This document shows, in pieces, positions 5,865 through 36,566 of a stretch of 40,910 nt of DNA. The translations under genes were made by a program, and so were the position numbers. The notes under the pieces were generated by a model. That model did not search any database and was not told the DNA's origin. It saw only the letters and a program-made list of their open reading frames with translations. This DNA comes from Candidatus Woesearchaeota archaeon (GTDB lineage Archaea; Nanobdellota; Nanobdellia; Woesearchaeales; GW2011-AR4), in NCBI GenBank assembly GCA_018303185.1, contig JAGVYR010000067.1, forward strand, positions 1 through 40,910. Reading direction: 5' to 3'. Every line of letters begins with the position of its first letter. Position 1 is the stretch's first letter.

Positions 5865-6641
5865 CTAAAGCATCTTCCTCAGTTCCTTCGCCTTCTCCAC
5901 TGCAATGTCAATCATCTGGAGTATGTCCTGCTCTGCCAGAGGGGAATTGCCGCCTTTCTGCATTGAGCATAAGGTGCCGTCATCCAGGCTTCCGACAGTC
6001 AGCCTCGCGTCAATGACTTTCTCCTCGTCAAGGTCAGGGTCAACAATGAAGCTGCTGCCAATCTTGGACACTGTTACAGATAAGGGCCACGCTTTCATCC
6101 CAAGCTTCTTATCGGTCTTTTCCTTGTACTCAATCTTGCCTTCATCATTCAGTGCCGGGAAGCGCATGTCCTTTACTGCTGCGATTGCAGCAAGCGAAGC
6201 GGCATCCAGAAGATTGCCGGAACTGTTCAGCGATATCACATCAATCATAATGAACCATGCCTTCTCGCCCTTTTCGATGCACAATCCTTTGAAGTCAACC
6301 GCCTTGCTTTCCCTTATAGCCCTGTCAACAACCCTTGCAAGCTCTATGGCCTCTATGCCCGGAGGGCCTGACTCAAAGTCAGGGCTGGACAGAGGAAGAA
6401 GCTCTGTATTGACCATAAGGCCGCCTTCCTCGGGAGTGTCCGGAAAAGGCGTTGAGATTTCAACCTTCACGCCGGCAATCACTTCAGTATCGCCAATCTG
6501 CACTTTAGCCGAGCCTTCTGCAGTGTTCGAGACGCCGTATTCTATCTTTATAGGCTGCCTGTAATCTGTAAGCTTTCTTCCGTCAAGCCTTGTGCCCGAC
6601 TCAAGAAGCCTGATTATGTGGTTTCTTAATTCTGAATTCAT
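5865..6641 (-). CDS. rrp42: Exosome subunit Rrp42
   Basis: Rrp42 is the non-catalytic RNase PH-like partner of Rrp41 in the hexameric ring of the archaeal exosome, which degrades and tails RNA from the 3' end. The start NHIIRLLESGTRLDGRKLTDYRQP is characteristic, as are VSNTAEGSAKVQIGDTEVIAGVK and the acidic-pocket region PDLDEEKVIDARLTVG. The length (258 aa) is normal. Its start overlaps the rrp41 stop by four nt (ATGA). It is the last gene of the psmA-SBDS-rrp4-rrp41-rrp42 operon. Confidence 0.95.
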   Translation of the reverse strand: MNSELRNHIIRLLESGTRLDGRKLTDYRQPIKIEYGVSNTAEGSAKVQIGDTEVIAGVKVEISTPFPDTPEEGGLMVNTELLPLSSPDFESGPPGIEAIELARVVDRAIRESKAVDFKGLCIEKGEKAWFIMIDVISLNSSGNLLDAASLAAIAAVKDMRFPALNDEGKIEYKEKTDKKLGMKAWPLSVTVSKIGSSFIVDPDLDEEKVIDARLTVGSLDDGTLCSMQKGGNSPLAEQDILQMIDIAVEKAKELRKML

Positions 6642-7351
6642 TCTTCATCAACTCTTGTGTATTTTTCCTTCAATGCCCGTTTTTGGACTTCATAGATCTT
6701 TGCGCAGGCCGCTTTTGCCTTTGCAAGAAGGTCCTTCAGCATTTCCTTCTTCACAAGCCCGTCCATTTGGAGCAAAGTTATCTTCCCGGAAGAGGGCATT
6801 ACCGCGACCGGAATGTCTGCAACAGGGCCGCCTTCATACGCTTCCTCTGAGTAATCAAGGTCTACAACCAATTTATCGTCAACCCTTCCTACAGAGACTG
6901 CTGCAATCATGTCCTTCATTGCAAGGCCTGCATCGGCAAGAGCCATTGCAGCGGCTGTTATGCCTGCACATCTGCTTCCTGCTTCTGTCTGCGGAAATTC
7001 AATGAAGACATCGACAACAGTGTTTGGGAACTCTTCAAGGCTGAGCACAGGAAGCAAAGCCTTCTCCGTAACCATGGAAATCTCCTTTGACCTTCTTGAG
7101 CCTCCGGGCCTTACCCTTTCCCCTGAGCCTGAAAAAGGCATCATATTGTAGTGGCATCTTAAAATGCCTGTAGAAGGGTCCTGCAAAAACTTTGGATGCA
7201 GATTTCTCGGGCCATACACTGCCGCATAAGCCCAAGTATTTCCAATTTTGAAGTATGCCGAGCCGTCAGCCCTTTTTATTACGCCGACCTTGGCTTCCAT
7301 AGGCCTTGTCTCATCAAAGCCCCTCTTGTTTTTTCGTTCTTTATAGCTCAT
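6638..7351 (-). CDS. rrp41: Exosome catalytic subunit Rrp41
   Basis: Rrp41 is the RNase PH-fold phosphorolytic subunit of the exosome. It shows the phosphate-binding G-S-R (about 125-127) and the active-site acid in GGPVADIPVAVM (Asp179). A basic RNA-contact region, GERVRPGGSRRSKEIS, lies near 76-92. The length is 237 aa. It overlaps the end of rrp4 by 11 nt, so translation of the two is likely coupled. It needs Rrp42 for activity, and the Rrp4 cap recruits substrate. Confidence 0.95.
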   Translation of the reverse strand: MSYKERKNKRGFDETRPMEAKVGVIKRADGSAYFKIGNTWAYAAVYGPRNLHPKFLQDPSTGILRCHYNMMPFSGSGERVRPGGSRRSKEISMVTEKALLPVLSLEEFPNTVVDVFIEFPQTEAGSRCAGITAAAMALADAGLAMKDMIAAVSVGRVDDKLVVDLDYSEEAYEGGPVADIPVAVMPSSGKITLLQMDGLVKKEMLKDLLAKAKAACAKIYEVQKRALKEKYTRVDEE

Positions 7352-8060
7352 TATTGTTCACCCTTTGAGTTTGTGTGCAGCCGTTCTGCTCGAGGAAAGA
7401 TTTTATCCTCTCTGTCAGCCCTGAAAGATGGCTTTCCTGCTCAATCTTCCTTATTGTCTTTATCGCAAGAAACTCCTTCTCAGGATCGCCCTGTATCCAT
7501 GCAATTCCGTTCTGCCCGACAATTATGTTGCAGCCGGTCATGTCTTTTATCATGCTTACCATGCTGCCCTGCTTTCCAATAATCCTTGGGACCTTGTTGG
7601 ATGCAACTTCTACCATCCTTCCGCCCCTCAGCTTCCTCAGGCCCGGGCCTTTCATGCTTATGTCCACAAGCTTCTGCGAAGTAACATTGTAGATTTTTGC
7701 AACAATGTAATCGCCCATGCTGTAATACTGCGTAAGATCGGCACCTCTCGCTATGAATTCAGAGGTAGCCTCCCTCACAGGCAGCATTGCCGAGTATGGG
7801 CTGTTCGTGTCAACTCTCCACCCGTTCATGCTGACATCAGTCACCTTGCAGATTATCGTGTCGTTCTTCTTTGGGATATACCGCCCGGACATCGGAATGA
7901 GCTTTATCGCCCTCCCGTCCAGCTGCACAAGCCCTAGGCGCCCTGCAACTATGTTGTCACCTTCCCTGTAAGTCCCCTGCCCCGGAAGGTTGTCCATCCC
8001 CACAGCGAGAACTTCGCCAGGAACGACAATGTCCTTGTCCTTAACTTTTATTTCTGTCAT
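7341..8060 (-). CDS. rrp4: Exosome RNA-binding cap subunit Rrp4
   Basis: Rrp4 caps the exosome ring and feeds RNA into it. The order is an N-terminal domain (VVPGEVLAVGMDNLPGQGTY), an S1 domain (about 60-130) and a KH domain with the G-x-x-G loop in RIIGKQGSMVSMI. The frame is open five codons further upstream to a GTG, but the archaeal Shine-Dalgarno GGTGAG lies just before the ATG used here, so the shorter start (239 aa) is preferred. The Shine-Dalgarno overlaps the SBDS stop codon. Confidence 0.93.
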   Translation of the reverse strand: MTEIKVKDKDIVVPGEVLAVGMDNLPGQGTYREGDNIVAGRLGLVQLDGRAIKLIPMSGRYIPKKNDTIICKVTDVSMNGWRVDTNSPYSAMLPVREATSEFIARGADLTQYYSMGDYIVAKIYNVTSQKLVDISMKGPGLRKLRGGRMVEVASNKVPRIIGKQGSMVSMIKDMTGCNIIVGQNGIAWIQGDPEKEFLAIKTIRKIEQESHLSGLTERIKSFLEQNGCTQTQRVNNNEL

Positions 8061-8071
8061 TTGATTCAACC

Positions 8072-8773
8072 TCACCTGACTTTCTGCACTTTTGCCTCAA
8101 CATTTCCGTGAGTCAGTGCGTTTATTTTGTCGTAAAAATCACTTTCAAGTCCGCCTGGAATCTCCAGCAGCACGAGAAGGGAGCCGTCATTCTGCCAATC
8201 TTCACGAAGTTTTGTGCCAAATGAATTTATTATGCCGTATGACTTGGCTGCAAATTCAGGCGGTATCTTTACCGAAATTTCCTTGATTTCAAACTTTATC
8301 GGGAGTATCGGCCTCAGCAGTTTCAGGGCTTCCTGCACCTGCCTCTGCACAGGCTCAAATTCATGGAGATGAAATTTTGCCTCTGCCAGCGCATTCTCTA
8401 TCCTCTGCAGAGGATGGGGATGGTGTGTTGTTGGATCGACACCATTGACATGAATCATGTTTACAATCTGCCTGTACTTTTGCTCCCTCAGCTTTGCCTT
8501 GTGCTCTGCAGTTATCTGGACTTCTCCCTTTTCTATGATCGCTTTTGCAGCTTCAAGATGGTCGGCAGTCCCGAAAACTTCCTTCATTGCCCCTTCAGCT
8601 GCTGCAAGGCCCTTGTGCGCATCCGTAAAGACTTTCTGGGCTGCGAGAACATTCTTTATGTCTATCCCTTTTCCGGCTTTCAGCTCCAGCGCCATGTCAG
8701 AGTCCACAAGAATCTCAAAAGTATGGCCGTGGCTTTTCAGCCTTGCTATCACTGCCTTGTCTACATTAACCAT
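8072..8773 (-). CDS. Ribosome maturation protein SBDS homologue
   Basis: This is the archaeal orthologue of human SBDS and yeast Sdo1, which act with an EF-2-like GTPase in late large-subunit maturation. In archaea the gene is usually part of the exosome operon, as here. The SBDS N-terminal domain (DKAVIARLKSHGHTFEILVD) is followed by the central helical domain with VNMIHVNGVDPTTHHPHP and a ferredoxin-like C-terminal domain. The ATG chosen lies one nt after the psmA stop codon. An upstream in-frame extension of 14 basic residues overlaps psmA and is unlikely to be used. Confidence 0.95.
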   Translation of the reverse strand: MVNVDKAVIARLKSHGHTFEILVDSDMALELKAGKGIDIKNVLAAQKVFTDAHKGLAAAEGAMKEVFGTADHLEAAKAIIEKGEVQITAEHKAKLREQKYRQIVNMIHVNGVDPTTHHPHPLQRIENALAEAKFHLHEFEPVQRQVQEALKLLRPILPIKFEIKEISVKIPPEFAAKSYGIINSFGTKLREDWQNDGSLLVLLEIPGGLESDFYDKINALTHGNVEAKVQKVR

Positions 8774-8774
8774 T

Positions 8775-9512
8775 TTACTTCTTCTTTGCCGCTTTGTCTC
8801 CTGCCGCTTTCTCAATGTCTTCCTTCGAGAACTTAGCGAATTTTCTCTTCTTTGAGTCTATATAAGCTGCATCTATTCTCTCTATCTTGAAATTTTCCCC
8901 AAGGATCTTTTTTAATGCCTTTAATGACAGCTTCAGGGCGTCGCTTATGCTCATGCCGGGATTGTATTCCTTATGCAGGATTTCCTCAATCTCCACTTCG
9001 CCCTCGCCGATTGCGGTTGCCTTGTACTCGAAATATATCCCTGTCGGGTCTGTCTCGAATAATTTCGGGCGGTGGTTGTCAATCCCCCCTACGAGTATTG
9101 AGACGCCGAATGGCCTCAAGCCCCCGCTCTGGGTGCATATCTGCTTTAAGTCGCAGATGTCCTTTGTTATTGTCAGGATGTCAATTTCCGAGTCAAAAGT
9201 CACCTTGTGCTGCTGTGCCTTCAGCTGGGCCCTTTCTATAAGGACGCGCGCATCCGAGAGAATTCCTGCTGCCGTAGCTGCAATGTGCTCGTCAATCTGC
9301 CATACTTTCTCTACAGACTCTGGAACGACCAATGAGTCTACTATCCTCTTATCTGCCACGAAAAGGACGCCGTCTGAGCATGTTATGCCAATTGCTGTGG
9401 AGCCCTGCCTGACTGTCTTCTTGGCGTATTCCACCTGAAGTAGCCTGCCGTCAGGGCTGAACATTGTAATTGCGCGGTCATATCCCATCATCTGATGCTG
9501 CATCGGTTGCAT
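8775..9512 (-). CDS. psmA: Proteasome subunit alpha PsmA
   Basis: PsmA forms the outer gate rings of the 20S proteasome. The signature YDRAITMFSPDGRLLQVEYA is present near the N-terminus, followed by KKTVRQGSTAIGI. The C-terminus is Lys/Ala-rich (KAAGDKAAKKK). The start is fixed by a GGAGG Shine-Dalgarno ten nt before this ATG; a longer TTG-initiated frame would read through that ribosome-binding site. This is the first gene of the exosome operon. It follows a long leader region that is A-rich on the coding strand. Confidence 0.95.
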   Translation of the reverse strand: MQPMQHQMMGYDRAITMFSPDGRLLQVEYAKKTVRQGSTAIGITCSDGVLFVADKRIVDSLVVPESVEKVWQIDEHIAATAAGILSDARVLIERAQLKAQQHKVTFDSEIDILTITKDICDLKQICTQSGGLRPFGVSILVGGIDNHRPKLFETDPTGIYFEYKATAIGEGEVEIEEILHKEYNPGMSISDALKLSLKALKKILGENFKIERIDAAYIDSKKRKFAKFSKEDIEKAAGDKAAKKK

Positions 9513-9760
9513 TTGATCATCGCCTCCTACTTTCAATTTTCATTAATTCTAACGTAAAATCAAGTGCAACTCACGAAGTGAAATTAGTTGCATTTTGACC
9601 TTAACCTTCTTGCATTGCCTTTTTAATAATCGTGATTTTTTATTATTGTTTTATGATTTGTTTGTAATGAATTTTTTTATTGGTTTTTGAGTACTGTTGT
9701 TTTGTGCTTTTTTTGTTATTTTTTATAATTGAAATATTGTTTTTAGCCTGTTGTTATTTT
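9513..9760 (-). other. A-rich, T/G-poor leader region upstream of psmA
   Basis: There is no convincing gene in this gap. On the minus strand it is dominated by A with scattered C. Near psmA, TGCAACT (9569-9575) and AGTTGCA form an inverted repeat enclosing a small CAC/GTG hairpin. The composition resembles the stretch before rps12 in this window, suggesting a long, mostly unstructured 5' leader or a shared upstream element for highly expressed operons. Confidence 0.5.
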
Positions 9761-12276: not shown

Positions 12277-13326
12277 ATGCCAATAGATCTGGAGCTAAAG
12301 AAGATCGAGGAACATTCAGTCGGAGGAATGCAGGTGTTTTTCATAGGAGGAGAAAGGAATAAGCCTTTGGTGTTCATCGCCAAGGATGCACTCCCTTTGA
12401 CCAAAGAGATTGAATGGATGCACCTTCTCAATTATCTTGGATTCAGCGTCGCAACGCTTCACTACAGGGGGCTTGGCAACTCAAGCGGGGAAATGACCAT
12501 CAACGAAAGCACTCTTTCTCCTGTCGATGACATCATATCCGCGGTAGATTTTGCGCATAGGGAAATGGCAGGCAGAAGGCTCGCCCCGAGACATGAAAGA
12601 GCAGTGCATGTTTTGTCATACAGTTTTGGCGGGTTTCCTGCGATGGCAGCCTTGCCTAGGCTGGAAGGCGCAAAAAAGCTGGTTGCATACTCCCCGCCAA
12701 TACCTTCACCATCAAAAGAGCGGGCAAGCCTTTACGGTTTCGGAACAAAATTCGAAAAAATGGGAGGGATACTTGCTCTTTATTCGGATGAGGCTTCCCC
12801 GTTTTATATAAGGGGATTTGATGGACGGGAGGCACGTAATTTTTTCGGAGGTGAAAATCCTGCCGATCTCTCCGGGCTTTTTGCGGCAGTTTCTGATAAC
12901 AGGCTTCAAATTGACATTATGCATACTAGAAGTGATAGTTGGAATGCCTTTCTCAGGACACAGGATTTTGTTTATTCAGCCAACAGATGGTGCTATCACC
13001 ATAAAAGGAGCCCTATCGCAAGAATTATACCTCTTGAGAATGGCAGCGACCATATAAGCGGCTTTGGATATAACGAGATTGCTTTGGCAATGCACCTTCT
13101 GACTGGCAACGGCCTGCATATTTACAAAATGGAGATAGGAAGATTTTCTGATAGGGCCCGCTTTTTAGCGAAAAATATTGAAAGAGGAAAGCTTACAATC
13201 AAAGTTCCGTTCTACTCTGAGAATATTAAAAGCCTGATGAATAACGCGCATGGAGTGTTTTCTCAAGAGTCGGCAAATATGGTTCTTTTTGGCATATACC
13301 CGAGCGCACCAAAATATGCATCCTAA
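12277..13326 (+). CDS. Alpha/beta hydrolase-fold protein
   Basis: The 349-residue protein has the fold's landmarks: the strand and oxyanion region ATLHYRGLGNSSGE (about 59-72), the nucleophile elbow SYSFGG with Ser116, a candidate acid Asp220 in MHTRSDSW, and His259 in NGSDHISGF. The N-terminal part ends in a CAP-free core, and about 90 extra C-terminal residues follow the His. There is no signal peptide, so it is cytosolic. The substrate cannot be inferred. A strong GAGGAGG Shine-Dalgarno lies four nt before the ATG, with a TATA-like CTTTAAAAAC at 12222-12231, so this transcript has a leader. Confidence 0.75.
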   Translation: MPIDLELKKIEEHSVGGMQVFFIGGERNKPLVFIAKDALPLTKEIEWMHLLNYLGFSVATLHYRGLGNSSGEMTINESTLSPVDDIISAVDFAHREMAGRRLAPRHERAVHVLSYSFGGFPAMAALPRLEGAKKLVAYSPPIPSPSKERASLYGFGTKFEKMGGILALYSDEASPFYIRGFDGREARNFFGGENPADLSGLFAAVSDNRLQIDIMHTRSDSWNAFLRTQDFVYSANRWCYHHKRSPIARIIPLENGSDHISGFGYNEIALAMHLLTGNGLHIYKMEIGRFSDRARFLAKNIERGKLTIKVPFYSENIKSLMNNAHGVFSQESANMVLFGIYPSAPKYAS

Positions 13327-13380: not shown

Positions 13381-14892
13381 ATGGCAGCAATACAGGTAAG
13401 CCGGGCAGCGATGAAAATAATCGTCACTTTCCTCATACTTGTAGGCGGCTTCACGCTCTCAAGGCTCCTTTCAGCCATTGTGATTGCAATCGCGAAAAGA
13501 AAAGAGACCGTGAAGATAAGCCATGTCCACCTCAACAAGGCGCTGAGATATCTGGTTACAATACTTACCCTCACCACAGCATTGCTTTACCTTAAGACTG
13601 ATTTTGCGGGCACAATGAAAATAGCAAGCAATATACTGGAAGTATCGCTTGATTACCTGCCGGACATGCTTCTCCTCATACTGCTTATAATACTGGGAGT
13701 TACCCTTGCAAACCTCATAACCTTCGGGCTGAGGAGATTTTTCGATGCGACAGGACTTTCCGACCTCATGATGGAGCAGAACAAGGAGCATGTCCTGAGC
13801 ATCTCCCTCGTTTCAGTCAGGATAGCGCTCTATCTCCTCATTTCAGTATCGCTTATGAGCATCTTCGGCATGGATGTCCATAACATAGTAAGGTTTCTGG
13901 GATGGGCGCTCTACGGGCTTCTTGGGCTTCTCCTGCTGTATGTTTTCTTCGGCACAAGGGCTTTTGTCGAGAATTTCATAGCGGGCATTTACCTGAAATC
14001 GTCAAGAATCCTGAAGCTTGGCCATAAGGTAAAGGTTGACGGCACCGAAGGCACTGTAAAGTCAATATCCAACCAGGGCATCACGATAAAGTCCGATTTC
14101 GGCTATAACACATTCATCCCGAACAGGGAATTCATAAAGAAGGAAGTGTCGTACAGGCACATCGAAACAGACCTTGACACGCTGGAGAAAATTAAGGGCT
14201 ATTTTGTCGAGCAGAAGCCGAGCTACTGCGGCCCCGCATGCGCTTCCATGATACTGAAGATTTTCGGCTTCAACGCGACCCAGGCTGAAATAGGGGACAA
14301 GTGCGGCACTGAAGTCGGGAAAGGAACGCACCCGAAAAAGCTGATTGAGGTAGTGCATGAAATAACCAGGGGAAAGGTCGGGGGCGCCTGGATAGACGTA
14401 GACCACATAACCGAGCTCAAATCGGAAATGAGGCTCTGGCTCTCCCAGGGCGCGCTGCCGATAATTGACTACAAGAAGAATATGCTTTTTCCTGCCGCTA
14501 AGTCAGCGCACTACTCTGTTGTTGTCTCGATAGAGGGCGATGACCTTGTCATATTGGACCCGAGCGGCAAGAAAGGCGGCGTCTATCTTGCAGACCCAGT
14601 GAAGATTTACAGGGGGATGGACACTTTCTCGGAGCTTATACAGGGAAAAAGGGGCTACATAGTGTTTGCGCCCGAAGGCACAACAGCTTTCCACAGGATT
14701 GAGGAGGGCATTATATATTCTGACCCCGGCCTTTATACCGAACTCAGCCAGCAGCTGAAGAAGGAGCTTTTCAGCATCCTTGAGAAAGGGCAGGTAATAG
14801 AGAGTGTGCTTCCGCCGAGGGTGAAGAGCTTCCTGAGCAAGTGGAAGGAAAAGGACAAGATAGCGAGATTGTGGAGGCCGAATACGATTTAG
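13381..14892 (+). CDS. MscS-type mechanosensitive channel fused to a C39-like peptidase domain
   Basis: The N-terminal half has about five membrane helices (13-38, 52-70, 92-116, 140-162, 172-192). They lead into the MscS pore/beta domain, readable as ENFIAGIYLKSSRILKLGHKV and VDGTEGTVKSISNQGITIKS. At residue 274 a papain-fold C39-like domain begins. Gln278 and Cys283 lie in EQKPSYCGPACA, His377 in SAHYSVVV and Asp393 in VILDPSG, so all catalytic positions are present. The C-terminal 90 residues are helical and charged. C39 domains usually cut after GG in leader peptides during export. Here the domain should face the cytosol, where the MscS beta domain lies. The fusion may tie proteolysis to membrane tension. 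Confidence 0.85.
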   Translation: MAAIQVSRAAMKIIVTFLILVGGFTLSRLLSAIVIAIAKRKETVKISHVHLNKALRYLVTILTLTTALLYLKTDFAGTMKIASNILEVSLDYLPDMLLLILLIILGVTLANLITFGLRRFFDATGLSDLMMEQNKEHVLSISLVSVRIALYLLISVSLMSIFGMDVHNIVRFLGWALYGLLGLLLLYVFFGTRAFVENFIAGIYLKSSRILKLGHKVKVDGTEGTVKSISNQGITIKSDFGYNTFIPNREFIKKEVSYRHIETDLDTLEKIKGYFVEQKPSYCGPACASMILKIFGFNATQAEIGDKCGTEVGKGTHPKKLIEVVHEITRGKVGGAWIDVDHITELKSEMRLWLSQGALPIIDYKKNMLFPAAKSAHYSVVVSIEGDDLVILDPSGKKGGVYLADPVKIYRGMDTFSELIQGKRGYIVFAPEGTTAFHRIEEGIIYSDPGLYTELSQQLKKELFSILEKGQVIESVLPPRVKSFLSKWKEKDKIARLWRPNTI

Positions 14893-15266: not shown

Positions 15267-17945
15267 ATGAAGCGCAAAATTCCGGCTTTTTTCGTTTTAT
15301 CAGTGCTTGCCTTCCCTGCAGCCTGTGCTTTTTCCCTTGCAGACCTCATAGCTTTGTTCGACTTTGATTTTTCTTCAAATGAGGCCAATGCCTCAAATTT
15401 TACCGATTATATGGCTGATAAGGATGGGAATGGGGTTAATGATACCCTTATGATTGAATTCGACGCTGAAGGAAGCCCCGGCGATTATATCTTTTCTGTA
15501 AGCATTGCCGCCAATGGAGCTGCTTATTCAAATGAAACGAACAGGAGCATTGCTTCAGGGATAAAGCGGATTAACGCGACATTTCCTTCTTCTGTGCTGG
15601 CAGGAAGGAATTTCACCTATTCTGTGAAAATATTTGACAGCGAATTTAACCTTAAGCTTGAGAGGAATAATATTGCTTCGGGTAATTACCGGAATTATGA
15701 AAAGGGAATCAGGGTATTAAATGTGACTGACAAATTTTCAGGCGGCTCGCTGCTTCTTAATATAACAATGAATATAACCTATAATTCAGCCTTTGCGGCT
15801 GAGGCGTACCTTAAATACAATGATTCATTTATCTTTTCATCCAGCGAAAAAAACCTTACGGAAGGGGCAAACAGCATAGCAATTTACTTTGGCAATGAAA
15901 CCATTGCCTCAACAAGGTATTCGGGAAAATACAACCTGACTTCAGTGAGCGTCAACGGAATTTTCACCGCAATGGCCTATGAAACCGATTATTATGATTA
16001 TCTGGATTTTGCGCAGGGCTCGATGCTCACGGGATTTTCTGAAGAGCCTTTGGATTCCGACGGAGACGGCTTGAATGATGCATTAAATATAATATCCGAT
16101 ATTGAAGTAAAACAAGGCGGAAATTACAATATCGAGATAATCCTTGCGGATTCTTTTGGAAATTATATTGGGAAAAAGGCCGCATCAGCCGCATCAAATT
16201 CCGGGCAGAGGAGCATAACGGTGGCTTTCAATGGATCCTCTATATACTCAAGGAAGCTTAACGGGCCCTACATTGTGTCAAGCGCAAAATTATTTTCTGA
16301 AAATAAGGCTGAAGATGCTGTTTATGATGCTTATGCCACTGCCTATTACAATTACACAAACTTTGAAAAGCCGCCGCTGCCTGACCTTTCAGTTTCAATG
16401 TCCACTGACGGCAGGAATAATTACGGCTCGCAGGATTTCACTGTTCACGTGAAGATGAACAATTCAGGAAGCAGGGCCGCATTCAGCAGCTTCTTTGAGG
16501 TTTTTTCCAATGGCTCTTTTTCTTCAAATATTTCCAAAGGGATAATGAAAGCAGGGGAAATTATCGAGGCAGCTTACAATATTTCATCAGCTTTTGATAT
16601 AGAATTCACTGCGATTGCGGACATAAACGATTTTGTCGAGGAAAATAATGAGGAAAATAATTTTGCAAGGAAGGCACTAAGGATAAATAAGGCTCCAAGG
16701 CTGAAAAGAATTAATGGCATATCCGTTAACGAAACCGATGAAATAAGCATATCAATAAACTCATCAGATTCAAACAATGATGCCCTTTCCATTTATTCCA
16801 ACATCTCTGATTTTGAAATAAAAAACAGAACACTTTACTGGAAAACCACAACAATGGACGCAGGGCATTATGCGGCAATGGTTAATGTTTCCGACGGCTA
16901 TCTTTCCAATGCTTCGTTTTTCATGGTAGATATCATTGACAGGAAGGAGATCGACAATGATGACGACGGCGTAAATGACTCCCTTGATGCGGTTGCGGGC
17001 AATGAGAAATCCGTTAACACTACTATTCAAAATATCTCGCTGAGCCTTGGCGGCTCCTCAAACCTTTCAAGAGTCTTTCAGGGAGTGCATGAGCTGAGAT
17101 TTTTTGAAGGAAATAAGACGCTGCTCAGGCTGAGCCTTAATCTTTCAGAGACAAAAATCAATTTTTCAAAAGTAAGGATTGAGAGGCAGCAGGGGAACTC
17201 CACAGGATACATATTGTTCAGCGGAATATCCCTTCCGTCGGGAAGGACAAAAGCGCTCTTCATGGACAAGATGAACGAATCTGAAAACGGCGTGTGCATA
17301 AAGGATGCAGGCATAACTTCCATAGCTGAAGTAAGCAATGGCTGCACTGCAGCGGATGAGTTCAGGGTTGAATGCGACAACACAACCCAAGAGGGATATA
17401 CTTGCACATATAATTCAAGCATAGGAAAATATGAGATAAACGGATTAAAGCACTCGGGAATAAGGCAGATGGATTACCAAAAGCCCTCTTCTGAAAGCAG
17501 CCCTTTGCCGGACTCGGGAGGCTCCGGAAGGTGCATTCCTGACTGGTATTGCAATGAATGGAGCATTTGCATCAATGGGTTTGAAGCAAGGGAATGTTCT
17601 GATTTGAAGAACTGCAATGCTGCTATAGGAAAGCCTGAAACTTTGAGGGAATGTACTGGGACAGAAAGCAGCGAGGAAGGCATTGAAGGGGATTACAGCA
17701 GAGTAAACAATATCAAAATCAATAATGGAACAAATAATAATCAAAATAATAAAAACGAAAAAAATGCCGGCAAAGGCCCCATAACTGAAGGCGCAAGAAG
17801 CCCAATAGTCAGAATAACCGGCTGGGCTGTTGCAAATTATGAAAATACGGACAAAGGAATCGGTTTTTCCGTATTGGCTTTTGAGGTTGCTGTCGGCATG
17901 CTTCTTTACATGGCATACAGGAAGCGCCTAAAAACGTTTAAATAA
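15267..17945 (+). CDS. Large exported, C-terminally anchored surface protein with Ca-binding repeats
   Basis: A signal peptide (MKRKIPAFFVLSVLAFPAAC) starts the 892-residue protein, and one membrane helix near the end (about 866-885) followed by KRLKTFK anchors it, so nearly all of it is outside the cell. Acidic thrombospondin type-3-like loops recur (DKDGNGVNDT near 51, SDGDGLNDA near 268, DNDDDGVNDS near 567) and probably bind calcium. Between them are Ig/CARDB-like beta domains. A Cys/Trp-rich module (WYCNEWSICINGFEARECS) resembles a thrombospondin type-1 repeat, and an Asn-rich linker follows. N-x-S/T sequons are very frequent, suggesting heavy N-glycosylation. A role in the cell envelope or in adhesion is likely; which one cannot be told. 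Confidence 0.75.
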   Translation: MKRKIPAFFVLSVLAFPAACAFSLADLIALFDFDFSSNEANASNFTDYMADKDGNGVNDTLMIEFDAEGSPGDYIFSVSIAANGAAYSNETNRSIASGIKRINATFPSSVLAGRNFTYSVKIFDSEFNLKLERNNIASGNYRNYEKGIRVLNVTDKFSGGSLLLNITMNITYNSAFAAEAYLKYNDSFIFSSSEKNLTEGANSIAIYFGNETIASTRYSGKYNLTSVSVNGIFTAMAYETDYYDYLDFAQGSMLTGFSEEPLDSDGDGLNDALNIISDIEVKQGGNYNIEIILADSFGNYIGKKAASAASNSGQRSITVAFNGSSIYSRKLNGPYIVSSAKLFSENKAEDAVYDAYATAYYNYTNFEKPPLPDLSVSMSTDGRNNYGSQDFTVHVKMNNSGSRAAFSSFFEVFSNGSFSSNISKGIMKAGEIIEAAYNISSAFDIEFTAIADINDFVEENNEENNFARKALRINKAPRLKRINGISVNETDEISISINSSDSNNDALSIYSNISDFEIKNRTLYWKTTTMDAGHYAAMVNVSDGYLSNASFFMVDIIDRKEIDNDDDGVNDSLDAVAGNEKSVNTTIQNISLSLGGSSNLSRVFQGVHELRFFEGNKTLLRLSLNLSETKINFSKVRIERQQGNSTGYILFSGISLPSGRTKALFMDKMNESENGVCIKDAGITSIAEVSNGCTAADEFRVECDNTTQEGYTCTYNSSIGKYEINGLKHSGIRQMDYQKPSSESSPLPDSGGSGRCIPDWYCNEWSICINGFEARECSDLKNCNAAIGKPETLRECTGTESSEEGIEGDYSRVNNIKINNGTNNNQNNKNEKNAGKGPITEGARSPIVRITGWAVANYENTDKGIGFSVLAFEVAVGMLLYMAYRKRLKTFK

Positions 17946-18268: not shown

Positions 18269-18389
18269 AGGATTTTATTAGGGCTTATGCGGCCTTATGC
18301 AACTTCCCAACGATATCAACAAATCTTATTTAGCAACATTTAAATAGTAGTTTAATCAGTGCTGAATAGTAAAAGTGGTGGTAAGAGGC

Positions 18390-19823
18390 ATGGACAAAGG
18401 CGTAAAATTGATTCTGTTAGCTGTTTTGGTAGCGGTATCAGCAGCCTCTGCCTATGCCGCGCCTTCTTTTGAGCCAAAGGCTGTTGCCGTGAAGGATGAT
18501 ATCATTGTAAACGAGCCTGCAGAGTTCACTTTCGAGATATACAACAGTCTTGATACCATGCAAGAATTCAGGCTGTCCACGCTTGACTACCCTTTCTGGG
18601 GCATAAGGACAGAGCCTTTGATAAATCCCATAACCCTCACAGTAGCGCCAAAATCAAACAACAGCATCGGCATTCTTGTGGATGCCCTCCATATAACCCA
18701 GATAGGCGCTTATGTTGTCACGATAACTGTCGAATCCCTCAACACCGGAGAGAAGATATCGGTTCCTGTGCAGGTGGGGATAAAATCAACTGATCCTCTG
18801 ATTGGGGGCTATGTCCCGACTGTCATTACAAGTGTGAGCGTTCCTGCCCGGATGGACCCGAGGGAAGACGTCCCGATAAAGGTGCATTTGAGCAACCAAA
18901 ATCCCGTTGATTACGATGACATGGTTGTGAGGATTGAGAGCGAGCATTTCAATGATGTGATTGACTATACTCTGGGGCCGAGGGAGGAAAAGGATATCTC
19001 CCTCACAAAGAAAATCGACCCATTGTCGAGCCCGCAGAAAGGCAGGCTTTCTGTCACAATATACAAGGGCGACAGGATTGTCGTCAACACCATAACAAAG
19101 CCATATGAAATTATTGAATACAAGACGTTCACCCAGAAAGAAAAATCAAGCGGCTTCCTCAGCTCAAGAACCATGTATGAATTCCTGTCCAACAACAAGT
19201 ACTATTCAGGCCAGATTAAAGTTCCGACAACATTCATGCGCTCGCTTTTCACCACGACAAGCCCCCAGTCAGAAAAACTGGCAGAGGGCGGAAAGCGCTA
19301 CATCCTTTGGGACATCAGGCTTGAAGGCGCCAATACCATGGCAATGGAGAAGAAGGAAAACTTCCTGCCCCTCTTTGTGATAATCGTGCTGGTGATCGCT
19401 TTGAGCCTGTTCTATTACTTCTTCAGGAGCCCGCTGCTTATACTTAAGGAAGCTGCAAATGTCACGAAAGAAGAGGGCGGAATTTCAGGCATGAAGGTTG
19501 TGCTTCGCTTAAGGAACAGGGGCAAGTTCCAGCTTAAAGAAATAAGGATAACTGAGCAGGTGCCCTACCTTGTCCAGGTTGAGAAGGAAGTCTCAATAGG
19601 GACGCTGCAGCCCCAGAATCTTGTGAGGCAGGAAAAGAGAGAAACGCTTGTCCAGTGGCTTGTTGACAGCCTCGACCCCGGCGAAGAGAGGGTATTGACT
19701 TACAGGGTAAGCACAAAACTTCCTATTCTAGGCAGCTTTTCACTGGCAGCAGCATCGGCAAAATTCACGCAGGAAGGGAAAGAATTGGCTTCTTCTTCGA
19801 ATAGGCTGGCTGTTGAGATTTGA
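18390..19823 (+). CDS. Exported NEW3/CARDB-type protein with a C-terminal membrane helix
   Basis: A signal peptide (residues 1-23, GVKLILLAVLVAVSAASAYA) is followed by about 300 residues of beta-rich extracellular domains. These contain FEIYNSLDTMQEFRLST and IPVKVHLSNQNPVDYDDMVV-like strands, as in NEW3 or CARDB domains. A membrane helix (about 332-350, FLPLFVIIVLVIALSLFYYF) then leads to a cytosolic beta domain of about 125 residues (GMKVVLRLRNRGKFQLKEIRI). The ATG was chosen over a GTG five codons upstream because it starts a normal signal sequence and follows AAGAGG. A TATA-like CATTTAAATA lies at 18339-18348. It may be a cell-envelope or secretion accessory protein. Confidence 0.7.
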   Translation: MDKGVKLILLAVLVAVSAASAYAAPSFEPKAVAVKDDIIVNEPAEFTFEIYNSLDTMQEFRLSTLDYPFWGIRTEPLINPITLTVAPKSNNSIGILVDALHITQIGAYVVTITVESLNTGEKISVPVQVGIKSTDPLIGGYVPTVITSVSVPARMDPREDVPIKVHLSNQNPVDYDDMVVRIESEHFNDVIDYTLGPREEKDISLTKKIDPLSSPQKGRLSVTIYKGDRIVVNTITKPYEIIEYKTFTQKEKSSGFLSSRTMYEFLSNNKYYSGQIKVPTTFMRSLFTTTSPQSEKLAEGGKRYILWDIRLEGANTMAMEKKENFLPLFVIIVLVIALSLFYYFFRSPLLILKEAANVTKEEGGISGMKVVLRLRNRGKFQLKEIRITEQVPYLVQVEKEVSIGTLQPQNLVRQEKRETLVQWLVDSLDPGEERVLTYRVSTKLPILGSFSLAAASAKFTQEGKELASSSNRLAVEI

Positions 19824-21781: not shown

Positions 21782-22024
21782 ATGAAGAAAAAATTTTCAC
21801 TCGACAAGCATTCGCTCATACCGAAGCACTCAAAGCTCAGCGAGAAGGAGAAAAAGGAGCTTTTTGAAAAATACAGCATTTCTGAGAAGGAGCTTCCGAA
21901 GATGTCAAAGAATGACGCGGCCATCCAGGGCCTTGGAGCGGCGCCGGGAGACATAATCAGGATTACAAGGCAGAGCTATACTGCAGGGGAATCATTTTTT
22001 TACAGGGTTGTTACAAATGTATAA
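21782..22024 (+). CDS. rpoH: RNA polymerase subunit H (Rpb5-like)
   Basis: The 80-residue protein is the archaeal counterpart of the C-terminal domain of eukaryotic RPB5, located near the downstream DNA channel. It contains KHSLIPKHSKLSEKEKKELFEKY and the conserved GAAPGDIIRITRQS. It begins 22 nt after the end of tRNA-Lys, leaving no room for a separate promoter with normal spacing, so a joint transcript with the tRNAs is likely. Its end overlaps the next start by eight nt. Confidence 0.95.
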   Translation: MKKKFSLDKHSLIPKHSKLSEKEKKELFEKYSISEKELPKMSKNDAAIQGLGAAPGDIIRITRQSYTAGESFFYRVVTNV

Positions 22025-23510
22025 ATACGGAAAGACACTGATAAAAAAATATTTTGAAGAGCAGAGTTTTGTAGACTCGGATATAGATTCCTTCAACAAT
22101 TTTATTGACAAGGAGCTTGCAAAAATAATCGAAGAGAACAGGGAAATTGTGCCTACAATCATCCCACATAATGTTGATGACTTCAGGATAAAGCTTGACA
22201 GAATCTGGGTCACGAAGCCGGAAATCACGGAAGCCGACGGCAGCAAAAGGGACATCCACCCGATGGAGGCGAGGCTCAGAAAGCTGACTTATTCCGCCCC
22301 AACATTTATTGAAGTCTCTGCACACATAAACGGCGTCCAGAGGGAGAGCTTCACGACGCAGGTTGCAAGCCTTCCTATAATGCTCAAAAGCAAATGGTGC
22401 CATCTGCACAAGCTTTCAAGGCAGGAGCTCATTGACAGGGGCGAAGACCCTGACGAGCCGGGCGGCTATTTCATAATCAACGGGACAGAGAAAGTGCTTA
22501 TAACCGTCGAGGATCTCGCGGCAAACAGGCTGATGATTGAAGAGGATGCGACAGGGGCAAGCCCATATGTCGGCAGGCTGTTTTCCGAGCACGGCTCATT
22601 CAAGATACCGCATACAATCGAGAGATTAAAAGACGGCATGTTCTACCTTTCTTTTACACGCGTCAAAAGGATTCCGGCTGTAGTCTTATTGAAGGCGCTC
22701 GGCATGCTTAAGGATGAGGAAATAACGCGCTTTATTTCATCCGAGAGGCAGTATGACGAGATGATAGTCAACCTCGTAGAGTTTGTGGGCATCAAGACAG
22801 TCGAAGATGCGCTGGACTATATGGCGAAGAGGATCGGCATAACGCAATCCAAGGAAGTAAGGATAGAGAGAATGAAGGAGATACTTGACAAATACCTGCT
22901 TCCAAATCTCGGAACCGATGAGGGGGACAGGATTTTCAAGGCATACAACATATGCAAATTCCTGAAGAGGTACATAGAAGTGATGAACGGAAGGCAGGAC
23001 ACGGACGACAAAGACCACTACAAGAATAAGAGGCTGAAGCTTGCAGGAGACCTTCTTGCAGACCTTTTGAGGCTGAACCTTAAAGTGCTCATAGGGGACC
23101 TTCTTTATAATTTCCAGAGAATAGTCAAAAGGGGGAAATTCCCGTCAATAAAAGTGATCATAAGGGACAAGCTTCTCACGCAGAGAATTTATTCTTCCAT
23201 GGCGACAGGCTCATGGGTCGGCGGCAGGAAGGGAATCAGCCAGAGAATCCAGAGGCTCAATTATCTTGAGACACTTTCACACCTCCAGAGAGTTGTAAGC
23301 CCCCTGAGCGCATCCCAGGAAAATTTTCAGGCGAGGGAGCTGCATCCGACACATCTTGGCAGGCTGTGCCCGATTGAGACCCCGGAAGGAACCAACATAG
23401 GCCTGAGAAAAAATCTGGCGCTGCTTTGCAGCATATCCCCTGAGACAAGCGAGGAAGATGTGCTCAAGGCACTCAAACAGCACGGCCTGAAGCCGATAAA
23501 GGAAAAATAA
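22017..23510 (+). CDS. rpoB2: RNA polymerase subunit B'' (N-terminal half of Rpb2)
   Basis: This is the N-terminal half of the second-largest polymerase subunit, encoded separately from B'. It has the lobe/protrusion region (SAHINGVQRESFTTQVASLPIML, then PGGYFIINGTEKVLI) and ends in the fork-loop motif RRVVSP-like LQRVVSPLSASQ with HPTHLGRLCPIETPEGTNIGLRKNLAL. The ATG at 22017 overlaps rpoH; a TTG three codons upstream is less likely. Splitting of the subunit between B'' and B' is a known state in several archaeal groups and is useful for classification. Confidence 0.95.
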   Translation: MYKYGKTLIKKYFEEQSFVDSDIDSFNNFIDKELAKIIEENREIVPTIIPHNVDDFRIKLDRIWVTKPEITEADGSKRDIHPMEARLRKLTYSAPTFIEVSAHINGVQRESFTTQVASLPIMLKSKWCHLHKLSRQELIDRGEDPDEPGGYFIINGTEKVLITVEDLAANRLMIEEDATGASPYVGRLFSEHGSFKIPHTIERLKDGMFYLSFTRVKRIPAVVLLKALGMLKDEEITRFISSERQYDEMIVNLVEFVGIKTVEDALDYMAKRIGITQSKEVRIERMKEILDKYLLPNLGTDEGDRIFKAYNICKFLKRYIEVMNGRQDTDDKDHYKNKRLKLAGDLLADLLRLNLKVLIGDLLYNFQRIVKRGKFPSIKVIIRDKLLTQRIYSSMATGSWVGGRKGISQRIQRLNYLETLSHLQRVVSPLSASQENFQARELHPTHLGRLCPIETPEGTNIGLRKNLALLCSISPETSEEDVLKALKQHGLKPIKEK

Positions 23511-23519
23511 GGAGAAAAA

Positions 23520-25322
23520 ATGGCAGAAGTTTACCTAAACGGAAAGTTTGTAGGGGAAGTTGATGATTCTGCAGGCTACATTGGCAAGCTCAGGGATGAA
23601 AGAAGGAAGGGGATAATGCCCTCAAGCATTAATTTTTACCTTGATAAAAAGTCAGGAAGGATTGAGGTCGAATCATCCCGCGGAAGGGCAAGAAGGCCTT
23701 TGATCATAGTTAGGGAAGGGAAGCCGCTCCTTACGGACAGGCACATAAAGCAGCTTGAGAAGAACGAGATATCATGGAGCGACCTTGTAAAGGAGGGCAT
23801 AATTGAATACCTTGATGCATCAGAGGAGGAAAATGCCCTTGTCGCATTCTTTGAGCAGGACCTTACGCATGAGCATTCCCATCTTGAGATAACGCCGCTG
23901 AATATGCTTGGATACTGCACAGCCCTTGTCCCTTACGGGAATTTCAACCAAAGCACAAGATTGAACGCGGGAAGCAAGAACCAGAAGCAGGCCTTGGGAA
24001 TTTACGCTTCAAATTATGCGGTCAGAATGGACATGGACGTGAATCTTCTGCACTATGCGCAGGTTCCGATTGTAGAGACTATAATGCATGAAATTACAGA
24101 GTATGGCAAGCACCCTGCAGGGCAGAATATTGTGGTTGCGGTCATGTCATACAAGGGCTATAATATGGAAGACGCCATTATAATCAACAAGGGTTCCATT
24201 GACAGGGGCTTTGGAAGAAGCACTTATTACAGGCCAAGCGTCGCCGAGGAGCTAAGGTACTCAGGCGGCCTTATGGACGAAGTCTCAATCCCCGACAAGG
24301 ATGTGAAGGGGTACAGGAGCGAGAAGGACTACAGGTATCTGGAGGACGACGGGATAATATATCCTGAATCAAAGGTTGCCGAGGGAGACGTGATCATAGG
24401 AAAGACAAGCCCTCCAAGATTTTTGAGCTCAATGGAAGAATACAACCTTGCTTCGTCAACAAGAAGGGAAAGCTCTGTCACGATGAAGCACGGCGAGAAA
24501 GGGGTTGTTGACTTTGTAATGCTTACTGAGAATGAGGAAGGAAACAAGCTTATCCAGGTAAGATTGCGCGACCAGAGAATACCGGAAGTGGGCGACAAAT
24601 TCACGTCAAGGCACGGCCAGAAGGGAGTTGTCGGCCTTATAGTGCCTGAAGCAGACATGCCTTTCTCAGCATCGGGAATCAAGCCTGACTTAATATTTTC
24701 CCCGCACGGAATTCCGTCAAGAATGACCATGGCGCACCTCATCGAGCTTGTAGGCGGGAAAGTGGGAGCATTGTCAGGAAGGCTCATTAACGGAACGACT
24801 TTTGACGCGGAGCCTGAAGACAAGCTGAGGCAGGAGCTCAAGGAGCTTGGCTTTAGGGAGAATGGCGTTGAGACATTCTACAACGGAGAGACAGGAGAGC
24901 AGTTTGACTCCCAGATCTTTGTGGGAAACATGTATTACCTGAAGCTTAAGCATCTTGTGGCTAACAAGCTCCATTCAAGGGCGCGCGGCCCGATACAGCT
25001 GCTTACAAGGCAGCCTACGGAAGGCAGGGCGAAGGAAGGCGGCTTAAGGCTTGGAGAGATGGAGAAGGACACATTTGTCGCACACGGAGCTTCGCTTCTT
25101 TTGAAAGAGAGGTTTGATTCGGATAGGACAATCGTGCCCGTATGCGAGGGCTGCGGCACAATCGCAATAAGGGATGAATACAAGGAAAAGACATACTGCC
25201 CGATATGCGGCGAAAATACTGAAGTGAGCAATGTTGAGATAAGCTATGCGTTCAAGCTCATACTTGACGAGTTCAAGTCACTCGGCCTGTATCCGCAGAT
25301 GAAGCTTAAGAGCAAGTACTAA
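23520..25322 (+). CDS. rpoB1: RNA polymerase subunit B' (C-terminal half of Rpb2)
   Basis: The 600-residue subunit contributes to the catalytic centre and wall of RNA polymerase. Visible are the ALGIYASNY, GYNMEDAIIINKGS and GDKFTSRHGQKGV motifs near the active site, the LLTRQPTEGRAKEGGLRLGEMEKD switch/anchor region, and a C-terminal zinc ribbon (CEGCG...CPICG). A GGAG Shine-Dalgarno lies in the nine bases between it and the previous gene. Confidence 0.97.
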   Translation: MAEVYLNGKFVGEVDDSAGYIGKLRDERRKGIMPSSINFYLDKKSGRIEVESSRGRARRPLIIVREGKPLLTDRHIKQLEKNEISWSDLVKEGIIEYLDASEEENALVAFFEQDLTHEHSHLEITPLNMLGYCTALVPYGNFNQSTRLNAGSKNQKQALGIYASNYAVRMDMDVNLLHYAQVPIVETIMHEITEYGKHPAGQNIVVAVMSYKGYNMEDAIIINKGSIDRGFGRSTYYRPSVAEELRYSGGLMDEVSIPDKDVKGYRSEKDYRYLEDDGIIYPESKVAEGDVIIGKTSPPRFLSSMEEYNLASSTRRESSVTMKHGEKGVVDFVMLTENEEGNKLIQVRLRDQRIPEVGDKFTSRHGQKGVVGLIVPEADMPFSASGIKPDLIFSPHGIPSRMTMAHLIELVGGKVGALSGRLINGTTFDAEPEDKLRQELKELGFRENGVETFYNGETGEQFDSQIFVGNMYYLKLKHLVANKLHSRARGPIQLLTRQPTEGRAKEGGLRLGEMEKDTFVAHGASLLLKERFDSDRTIVPVCEGCGTIAIRDEYKEKTYCPICGENTEVSNVEISYAFKLILDEFKSLGLYPQMKLKSKY

Positions 25323-25323
25323 A

Positions 25324-28092
25324 ATGGCGAAGGAAGCAAAAGAAATGAAGGAAGGCGAAAAAGACGAAAGCCTTATGGAAATGGGCGAAACTGCTAAAGA
25401 GAGCATGAAAGCGGAGGAAAAGCCGGAGACAGCCTCTTTTGGAGAGGGAAGTGCGGCAGAGCCGGCAGCAGCTGCAGGCGCGGCAGCCCCTGAAGAAACG
25501 CCTGCAAAGAGCATAGAAAAGTTTGAGGCTGAGCAGTTCCCGCAGAAACAGGTAGGCAGCATAATGTTTTCTGTGCTGTCGCCGAAGATGATTAAGGACA
25601 TGGCATCCGCCAAAATTGTCACGCCGGAGCTTTATGACAAGGAAGGCTATCCTGTTGACGGCGGCCTGATGGACATAAGGCTTGGAGTTATTGACCCGGG
25701 ATTAAGGTGCAAGACATGCGGCTCAAAGCTGAAGGAGTGCATAGGCCACTTCGGATACATAGAGCTTGCAAGGCCAATCATACATATCAAATTTGCAGCC
25801 ATGGTGCTTAATCTCCTGAAAGGGACATGCCGCGAATGCGGCCATGCGCTCATACCTTCGGTAAAGATAAAGAAGGCTCTCGAGCAGCTTGACGAGGCTG
25901 AAAGGGAAAAAGGGATTGAAGCAAGAAGGAAGAAAGTCAGGGAAGTAATGCTTAGCATGAAAGCAGCCTCAAAATGCCCGCACTGCAAGGCAAAGCAGTA
26001 CAAGGTTTCTCTCGAAAAGCCCACTACATACATCGAGAATGAGAAGAGGATAAGCCCGATTGAAGTAAGGACAAGGCTTGAAAAGATTCCGGACGAGGAT
26101 GTCGAGCTTTTTGGAATGAAGTCCAAGTTCATAAGGCCTGAATGGATGGTGCTTACAGTGCTTCCAATCCCTCCGGTGACAATGAGGCCTTCCATAACAC
26201 TGGAATCAGGAGAGAGAAGCGAGGATGACCTGACGCACAAGCTGGGCGATATTGTCAGGATAAACCAGAGGCTTTTCGAGAATATCAATGCAGGAGCCCC
26301 TGAAATAATTGTTGAGGACCTTTGGGACCTGCTGCAGTATCACGTTACAACTTTCTTTGACAATTCAGTGGCACAGCTCCCGCCGGCAAGGCACAGGAGC
26401 GGGCAGCCCCTGAAAACGATTACCGAAAGGATCAAGAGCAAGGAAGGAAGGATAAGGCACAACCTTGCAGGAAAAAGGACAAACTTTTCTGCAAGAACAG
26501 TAATAAGCCCTGATCCCATGATCGAGCTCAATGAAGTCGGCGTTCCGAAGATAATAGCAATGAAGCTTACTGTCCCGGAAAGAGTGACCGAATGGAACAT
26601 GGAGTACCTTAAGCAGTTTGTCGGGAGAGGCCCTGAAATGTATCCGGGCTCAAACTACATAGTAAGGCCTGACGGCAAGAAAAAGAAGATTACTGATGAG
26701 ACAAAAGAGGCTTCGCTTGAGGAGATCCAGCCGGGCTACATCGTGGAAAGGCACCTCATGGACGGGGACATTGCGGTCTTTAACAGGCAGCCGTCCCTGC
26801 ACAGGATGAGCATGATGAGCCATCGTGTCCGAGTTTTGCCAGGAAAAACGCTAAGGCTGAATCCTGCTGTATGCCACCCTTATAACGCTGATTTTGACGG
26901 AGATGAGATGAACCTCCACATACCGCAGACAGAGGAGGCAAGGGCAGAAGCTGAAATACTGATGGAAGTCCAGACACAGCTCATATCGGTAAGGTACGGG
27001 CTTTCTGTCATCGGATGCGTGCAGGACGCAATTTCAGGAAATTACCTTCTTACAAAAAGCCTTTCGGAAATGGCGAGGCATGAAGCCGTTGACATGCTTT
27101 CTGCAATCGGAATAGAGGACTTTGGAAAGCTTCCGAGAAAGGAGAAAGTGCACGGAAGGGAAGTGTTTTCAGTCCTGATTCCTGATGACTTCAATTTCAA
27201 GGGAAAGACACGCTCAGGAGAGGAAGTCACGATAAAGGACGGCAAGCTTATTGAAGGGTTCATGGACAGCGCAAACCTGGGAGAAGGCTCAGGGCTGCTT
27301 CTCAGGAATCTTCACCACAAATACGGAAAGGATTTCACTGTCGACCTGCTTGGGAAGATGTTCAGGCTCGGAATAAGGGTGCTGCTGAAAACGGGGTTTT
27401 CGGCAGTCATATCAGACACAGACCTCCCTGAAAATGCGAAGCTCGCAATAAATGAGGCTTTGGACAAGGCAAGGCAGGAAGTTGATGCGCTGATACAGCT
27501 TTACAAGGACAATAAGCTTGATACATTCCCCGGAAAATCATTGGAAGAAACGCTTGAGCTGAGGATACTTGAGGTGCTGAACAAAGTGAGGAACAGGACC
27601 GGAGAGATAGTTGCGGAAAAAGCAGATAAGGGCAGCCATACAATGGTAATGGCGAAGTCCGGTGCTAGGGGAAACCTTCTGAATCTTGCCCAGATGGCAG
27701 CATGCGTAGGCCAGCAGGCGATGAGGGGGAAGAGAATTGACAAAGGGTATGAGGGCAGGACGCTTTCACATTTCAAGAAAGGAGATTTGAGCCCGGAAGC
27801 CCGCGGTTTCATCAGGAACGGGTTCAAGAGCGGGCTCAATCCATTTGAATTTTTCTTCGGCGCAATGACGGGAAGAGACAGCCTGATGGACACTGCACTG
27901 AGGACGCCTAAGTCCGGCTATCTTTACAGGAGGCTTGCCAACGCGATGCAGGACCTTAAGGTTGATTATGACGGCTCTGTAAGGGACTCTTCAGGCCAGA
28001 TAATCCAGTTTTCGTATGGGGAAGACGGCATTGACGTTTCAAAATCAGAGAACGGAATAATAAACGTGAAAAGGATAATCGAACAGGTATAG
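25324..28092 (+). CDS. rpoA1: RNA polymerase subunit A' with an unusual acidic N-terminal extension
   Basis: A' carries the catalytic Mg-binding loop NADFDGDEMNLHIPQTEEA and the usual zinc sites (CKTCGSKLKECIGHFGYIE; CRECG...CPHC). The canonical start of the family (VGSIMFSVLSPKMIKDM) appears only at about residue 76. The first 70 or so residues are Glu/Lys/Ala-rich and low-complexity, with an Ala run, and are not part of the normal fold. The ATG one base after the rpoB' stop is the only sensible operon-spaced start, though other in-frame ATGs lie within the first 27 codons. Confidence 0.96.
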   Translation: MAKEAKEMKEGEKDESLMEMGETAKESMKAEEKPETASFGEGSAAEPAAAAGAAAPEETPAKSIEKFEAEQFPQKQVGSIMFSVLSPKMIKDMASAKIVTPELYDKEGYPVDGGLMDIRLGVIDPGLRCKTCGSKLKECIGHFGYIELARPIIHIKFAAMVLNLLKGTCRECGHALIPSVKIKKALEQLDEAEREKGIEARRKKVREVMLSMKAASKCPHCKAKQYKVSLEKPTTYIENEKRISPIEVRTRLEKIPDEDVELFGMKSKFIRPEWMVLTVLPIPPVTMRPSITLESGERSEDDLTHKLGDIVRINQRLFENINAGAPEIIVEDLWDLLQYHVTTFFDNSVAQLPPARHRSGQPLKTITERIKSKEGRIRHNLAGKRTNFSARTVISPDPMIELNEVGVPKIIAMKLTVPERVTEWNMEYLKQFVGRGPEMYPGSNYIVRPDGKKKKITDETKEASLEEIQPGYIVERHLMDGDIAVFNRQPSLHRMSMMSHRVRVLPGKTLRLNPAVCHPYNADFDGDEMNLHIPQTEEARAEAEILMEVQTQLISVRYGLSVIGCVQDAISGNYLLTKSLSEMARHEAVDMLSAIGIEDFGKLPRKEKVHGREVFSVLIPDDFNFKGKTRSGEEVTIKDGKLIEGFMDSANLGEGSGLLLRNLHHKYGKDFTVDLLGKMFRLGIRVLLKTGFSAVISDTDLPENAKLAINEALDKARQEVDALIQLYKDNKLDTFPGKSLEETLELRILEVLNKVRNRTGEIVAEKADKGSHTMVMAKSGARGNLLNLAQMAACVGQQAMRGKRIDKGYEGRTLSHFKKGDLSPEARGFIRNGFKSGLNPFEFFFGAMTGRDSLMDTALRTPKSGYLYRRLANAMQDLKVDYDGSVRDSSGQIIQFSYGEDGIDVSKSENGIINVKRIIEQV

Positions 28093-28149
28093 GCAAGGGC
28101 AGCAGGCATTATTAAAGGCAAATTCAGAGGCAAATGAGGGCATTCAAAA

Positions 28150-33806: not shown

Positions 33807-33828
33807 CTGCACTTTTTTGCATGCTTTC

Positions 33829-36565: not shown

Positions 36566-36566
36566 A

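Follow-up and report, generated by a model that had tools for sequence, protein, structure and literature searches.

The role best known for MscS channels is that of a passive safety valve. The E. coli protein has three membrane segments, and its family combines membrane helices, a pore helix region and a beta-domain with an alpha/beta cage domain (PF21082). Papain-like cysteine peptidases of family C39 are known from another membrane context, that of ABC exporters such as PCAT1 and ComA, in which, according to PMC10318531, they trim the leader from a precursor peptide. A further group of papain-like enzymes, the phytochelatin synthase (PCS)-like enzymes of family C83, includes Alr0975 (NsPCS) of Nostoc, which is described in PMC3855540 as deglycylating glutathione.

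Here, we describe a gene, present in some uncultured archaea with small genomes, in which an enzyme related to C39 and C83 is joined to an MscS-type channel instead of an ABC exporter. It lies at positions 13381 to 14892 (+) of a 40,910-nucleotide stretch of DNA from a Candidatus Woesearchaeota archaeon, which was analysed as a whole and is referred to as the window. We give about an even chance to the reading that the gene encodes a channel-anchored cytosolic cysteine hydrolase, in which an MscS-like ring would carry a papain-like enzyme that replaces the cage. The fusion is described in no paper that we found, which is weak evidence of novelty, as the literature covered was open access with few subscription journals and no preprints.

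Fusion of an MscS-type channel with a papain-like enzyme domain

The gene is a single uninterrupted open reading frame (ORF) of 503 amino acids plus stop. Hydropathy averaged over 24 sequences reveals five hydrophobic segments (13411–13956, +; centres of the averaging windows at residues 11–29, 57–73, 93–117, 145–168 and 173–192), which are followed by the MscS beta-domain (residues 196–256; 13966–14148, +), identified through MS_channel_2nd (PF00924, 8.2e-9), and by a linker (residues 257–275; 14149–14205, +). The papain-like enzyme domain (residues 276–430; 14206–14670, +) is matched by Peptidase_C39 (PF03412, 4.3e-9, residues 276–398) and, over an overlapping stretch, by Peptidase_C39_2 (PF13529, 3.3e-6, residues 278–394), all three Pfam matches being above the gathering score. 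Within this domain, Gln278 (oxyanion-hole position; 14212–14214, +), Cys283 (nucleophile position; 14227–14229, +), His377 (14509–14511, +) and Asp393 (14557–14559, +) are found where an earlier, sequence-only reading of the window had placed them. This confirms the basis of that reading, a papain-like domain with its active site intact that is joined to an MscS-type channel, and both domains are above their Pfam cut-offs. The protein ends in a conserved tail (residues 431–503; 14671–14889, +), in which no Pfam family has its best stretch in the window protein.

Elsewhere in the window, the minus strand encodes two RNase PH-like exosome subunits, an Rrp4-like protein, SBDS and a proteasome subunit (5865–9536), an ordinary archaeal arrangement. 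Homologues of the RNA polymerase subunits Rpb2 and Rpb1 are encoded at 22008–29292, each split over two ORFs, and three ORFs overlapping by 17–38 bases are found at 33817–37664, with weak phosphoribosyltransferase and PQQ-propeller matches, strong PQQ/BamB-like propeller matches and archaeal peptidase A24-type matches, respectively.

The same architecture was searched for in other archaea, as the sequence-only reading had proposed, and it recurs in a total of 26 genomes from 14 families. Among 352 genomes of the order, 25 match at E≤1e-20, 24 of them at full length and one (G003) partially, its copy consisting of the last 128 residues cut by a contig end. A profile search across 378 genomes of the class revealed a further full-length copy in G583, which lies outside the order. 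The other class-wide matches outside fusion genomes cover the channel half only, and none of 20 further genomes searched around G583 has a copy (1 of 21, G583 itself). The presence of the gene is patchy, with 13 of 36 genomes in one family (f1) and 0 of 20 in one genus (g10), although these absences are soft because many genomes are incomplete. This sparse distribution (25/352) implies that the gene is dispensable. In its own genome, no second match to the fusion was found at E≤0.001, and PF03412 has no other match.

An assembly artefact or chance join is ruled out by the occurrence of the fusion in 26 genomes with fixed spacing: Gly214 in the beta-domain and Gln278 are 64 residues apart in 22 of 24 aligned sequences. 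This alignment comprises the 24 full-length sequences of the order, i.e., the window protein and 23 orthologues that are 26–66% identical to it, without the copies from G003 and G583. Gln278, Cys283, His377 and Asp393 are invariant (24/24), so that the loss of the triad in close homologues, which had been named as a possible refutation, was looked for and not encountered. At E≤0.01, PF03412 and PF13529 are each recognised in 23 of the 24 members. Spread of the fusion by viruses or plasmids was also considered and rejected: 10 plasmid and 4 phage records match, none of them covering 80% of the query. Viral contigs contained 0 relatives of the fusion.

The channel half and its coupling to the enzyme

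The channel half retains the features of the E. coli MscS family in its membrane helices, pore helix region and beta-domain, and its family profile matches solved MscS chains at approximately 1e-10. It differs from E. coli MscS in having five predicted membrane segments instead of three and in carrying an enzyme where the cage would be expected. The sequence-only reading had spoken of a complete MscS pore/beta domain; this description holds for the pore and the beta-domain, whereas the alpha/beta C-terminal domain is missing, PF21082 being absent from the families listed (E≤1) for the window protein as well as from those of the 24 members. As PF21082 is not listed for any member, the enzyme directly follows the beta-domain and sits where MscS has its alpha/beta domain. 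The loop between the first and second segments is positively charged, with an average of 5.0 Lys and Arg against 1.25 Asp and Glu over the 24 sequences. Since positively charged loops are cytosolic according to the positive-inside rule, an N-out/C-in topology is predicted, and the enzyme domain most likely faces the cytosol.

The own genome of the fusion (G000, 1.62 Mb in 76 contigs) contains three PF00924 matches, of which the fusion is one. The second is a canonical MscS paralogue with PF21082 (3.9e-18) on contig C67, and the third, on contig C9, has PF00924 only. As the genome has two further genes of MscS type, and a cage is present in at least one of them, the fusion need not be the only osmotic valve of this organism. 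Moreover, short MscS-like proteins are common in the phylum, many of the matched stretches lying in open frames of approximately 180–230 amino acids. They share membrane helices plus beta-domain with the fusion, but they have no room for an enzyme domain, judged by open-frame length alone. Given how common these short matches are, a plausible origin for the fusion is the acquisition of an enzyme by a short channel.

In the channel-anchored hydrolase that we favour, a membrane-embedded ring, possibly heptameric by analogy with MscS, would be built from the five membrane helices and the beta-domain. Each subunit would hold, at a fixed distance and in the place of the alpha/beta cage, a cytosolic papain-like enzyme together with its conserved tail. 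The enzyme would most likely hydrolyse a peptide or peptide-like (amide-bonded) molecule via a Cys acyl-enzyme, by analogy with the chemistry of C39 peptidases and of the bacterial phytochelatin-synthase-like NsPCS. This reading is weakened by the sparse distribution of the gene, by the low confidence of the structure models (see below) and by the lack of a recurrent neighbour outside family f1 that would point to a substrate. With a joint this short and constant in length, the enzyme ring would be displaced as the channel opens or flattens, and this might, more speculatively, alter access to the active sites. That membrane tension controls the enzyme is likewise speculative. In its strongest form, this idea would make the protein a mechanically gated cysteine peptidase in which membrane stretch switches cytosolic proteolysis or thiol-peptide hydrolysis, i.e., a prokaryotic "chanzyme", which we regard as possible but somewhat unlikely.

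The role of the channel half could also be more modest: no longer conducting, it would only tether a constitutively active peptidase of the cytosol to the membrane and hold it as an oligomer. This would agree with the two other MscS-type genes in the genome and with the faster divergence of the channel half, which has a mean column identity of 47% and 3 invariant columns, compared to 60% and 27 invariant columns in the enzyme half, and a median pairwise tree distance of 2.85, compared to 1.31. However, PF00924 still detects the beta-domain in 19 of the 24 full-length members at E≤0.01, Asn198 at the end of the pore and Gly214 are kept in 22/24 and 24/24 aligned sequences, respectively, and the match to solved MscS chains as well as the fixed spacing to the enzyme speak for more than an anchor, which renders this explanation rather unlikely. 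Pairwise distances in one half correlate with those in the other (Mantel r 0.94, with a maximum of 0.57 in 1000 permutations), so the two halves have largely travelled together. Only 8 of 21 splits are common to the trees of the two halves, and exact co-descent is therefore not proven.

Relationship of the enzyme domain to the C39 and C83 families

The sequence-only reading had called the enzyme domain C39-like, and for the window protein single-sequence Pfam still puts C39 first. Profile–profile comparisons, however, place it closer to phytochelatin-synthase-like enzymes. The domain matches a profile of 7 such sequences at 8.9e-18 over 153 columns and a profile of 8 exporter C39 domains at 3.8e-10 over 101 columns, both profiles being hand-made from plasmid sequences picked for variety (7 of 27 listed PCS rows and 8 of 40 listed C39 rows). 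The order is unchanged for the shared core only (6.9e-15 compared to 1.5e-10), the stretch after Asp393 alone matches only the PCS profile (3.4e-5 compared to 0.093), and the best values among five shuffled controls were 0.19 against the PCS profile and 0.024 against the C39 profile. Among solved structures, the best match of the enzyme-half profile is Alr0975/NsPCS (3.1e-8, domain residues 10–169), with Gln, Cys, His and Asp of the fusion enzyme lining up, whereas C39 exporter chains reach only 0.078 and worse, over the first 67 positions. By these profiles, the domain is thus nearer to phytochelatin-synthase-like enzymes than to exporter C39 domains, a comparison that spans these two groups; as PF13529 (C39_2) matches 23 of 24 members, the domain may also have originated from C39_2.

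Individual residues and motifs point in both directions. Besides the papain-like core and the four active-site residues, the fusion shares with C83 enzymes a 'GMDT...RGY' motif after the Asp (residues 412–426; 14614–14658, +), which is common to phytochelatin-synthase-like enzymes and is not found in exporter C39 domains. Directly before the Cys, all 8 exporter C39 domains have an acidic residue (Asp or Glu), which none of the 24 fusion sequences has. The fusion differs from NsPCS in being membrane-anchored and in lacking the set of PCS second-substrate residues, given as Arg173, Lys206 and Tyr207 (NsPCS numbering) in PMC3855540: mapped by eye on the Alr0975 profile alignment, these positions hold Lys in 24/24, Lys in 14/24 and Gly in 23/24 sequences, respectively. 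The His377–Asp393 spacing of 16 residues (24/24) equals that of exporter C39 domains, compared to 17 in cyanobacterial and algal PCS according to a survey (PMC11314372). With exporter C39 domains, the fusion also shares the four active-site residues and a PF03412 match above cut-off, but the protein itself contains no ABC transporter.

Family models add to this mixed picture. The Phytochelatin family (PF05023) matches 16 of 24 members with 2e-7 at best, which weighs against a C83 assignment given that the best member E-values are 4.3e-9 for PF03412 and 8.8e-11 for PF13529. In NCBIfam, 12 of 24 members weakly match a bacteriocin ABC model (best 5.2e-5) and 10 of 24 match C39_PA2778 (best 0.0019), both favouring the C39 label. 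Considering that the profiles lean towards C83, that the second-substrate set of PCS is not conserved and that Pfam and NCBIfam lean towards C39, the enzyme is best called a separate papain-like branch between C39 and C83, filed in neither. Structure models were of low confidence, with a mean pLDDT of 46.6 for the full-length single-sequence model and 35.9 for a model of the enzyme domain built from 3 sequences.

When 336 genomes of the order were searched with a profile of the enzyme domain, 54 matched at E≤1e-4. The 25 strongest matches (2.0e-62 or better) are all fusion proteins, the next best reaching 4.1e-19, and the weaker matches from there on mostly lie in open frames of 140–210 residues, with a few of 334–550. 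Five distinct small C39-like proteins that were examined keep the CGPA or CGPT motif, the His and the Asp, but they are distant from the fusion, have no channel joined to them and lack the long tail. In these 336 genomes, the long tailed form of the enzyme domain is seen only on the channel. Two of the small C39-like proteins, L130 and L132 (from genomes G194 and G195), have 'ERGI' after the Asp, which resembles the RGY of the fusion; L130 is also the best-scoring free-standing relative seen.

The kinship with phytochelatin-synthase-like enzymes raises the question of whether the fusion acts on small thiols. In that case, it would remove the C-terminal residue from glutathione-like or other small peptides, as NsPCS does with glutathione, and the channel would couple this activity to solute loss or to redox or metal stress. 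The profile match, which spans the whole domain and takes in the GMDT...RGY motif, is in line with this, but the divergent second-substrate positions are not. Furthermore, GCS2 (glutamate-cysteine-ligase-like) is found in only 6 of the 26 fusion genomes, own genome included, and a glutathione pathway is therefore not a common trait. On balance, we consider a small-thiol hydrolase unlikely.

A processing role would fit the C39 label given by Pfam: like the exporter domains described above, the enzyme would trim the leader of a precursor at the cytosolic entrance of the MscS pore, through which the product would then leave. Such a system would resemble PCAT without ATP, and the fixed placement of the enzyme under the pore would be suitable for it. 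The sequence-only reading had suggested such a release of peptides and had proposed a search of the genome for GG-type leaders. None of the 26 fusion genomes exceeds the cut-off of the GG-leader model TIGR01847 and one has a weak match, but this bacterial model is short (15 positions) and was positive in just one of 14 control genomes, itself bacterial, so that it may overlook leaders of archaeal type. Moreover, clustering of the ORFs of the 26 loci reveals no conserved peptide gene or other recurring neighbour outside family f1 that would hint at a substrate, although this test is weak for some loci because many contigs end near the gene. Together with the greater distance to exporter C39 domains and the absence of their acidic residue before the Cys, this makes processing and export quite improbable. 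Overall, the substrate clues weigh against a dedicated GG-peptide exporter and against a glutathione pathway common to the fusion genomes. A second PF03412 match was found in 2 of the 26 fusion genomes (G006 and G252), in a search in which only 20 of the 26 reach the cut-off and some of the fusions themselves are thus missed.

Within family f1, two downstream clusters recur, c1 at 7 loci and c2 at 4 loci. They comprise relatives of two proteins encoded in the window, namely a probable membrane-anchored protein of 482 amino acids (18375–19823; c1) and a CARDB-domain protein of 892 amino acids (15267–17945; c2). Directly upstream of the fusion, the ORF at 12277–13326 is alpha/beta-hydrolase-like, with weak matches to Hydrolase_4 and to the model of the AHL-lactonase UilS (6e-4, well short of its cut-off), and it does not cluster with any neighbour in the other loci.

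The C-terminal tail is conserved at Arg439 and Trp498 (24/24) as well as at Arg496 and Pro500 (23/24 each), and the near-invariant Arg496-x-Trp498-x-Pro500 end, which is unusual for a tail, may be a docking or inhibitory element. Its compatibility with docking into the enzyme would suit a protein that switches its channel by binding its own tail or by cutting its own channel or that of a sister subunit, but the self-cleavage that the sequence-only reading had proposed for gating is not borne out, with a fixed spacing between the halves and no conserved GG, the only cleavage motif looked at, between them (the only widely conserved GG, residues 399–400 in 23/24, lies inside the enzyme domain), and we regard such self-regulation as very improbable.

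Implications for MscS-type channels and papain-like enzymes

Besides ABC exporters, the fusion is a second membrane context for an enzyme of the C39/C83 type. As a conserved family that carries an intact cysteine-enzyme domain instead of the cage, it would offer a testable prokaryotic example of catalysis that could be governed by the state of a channel.
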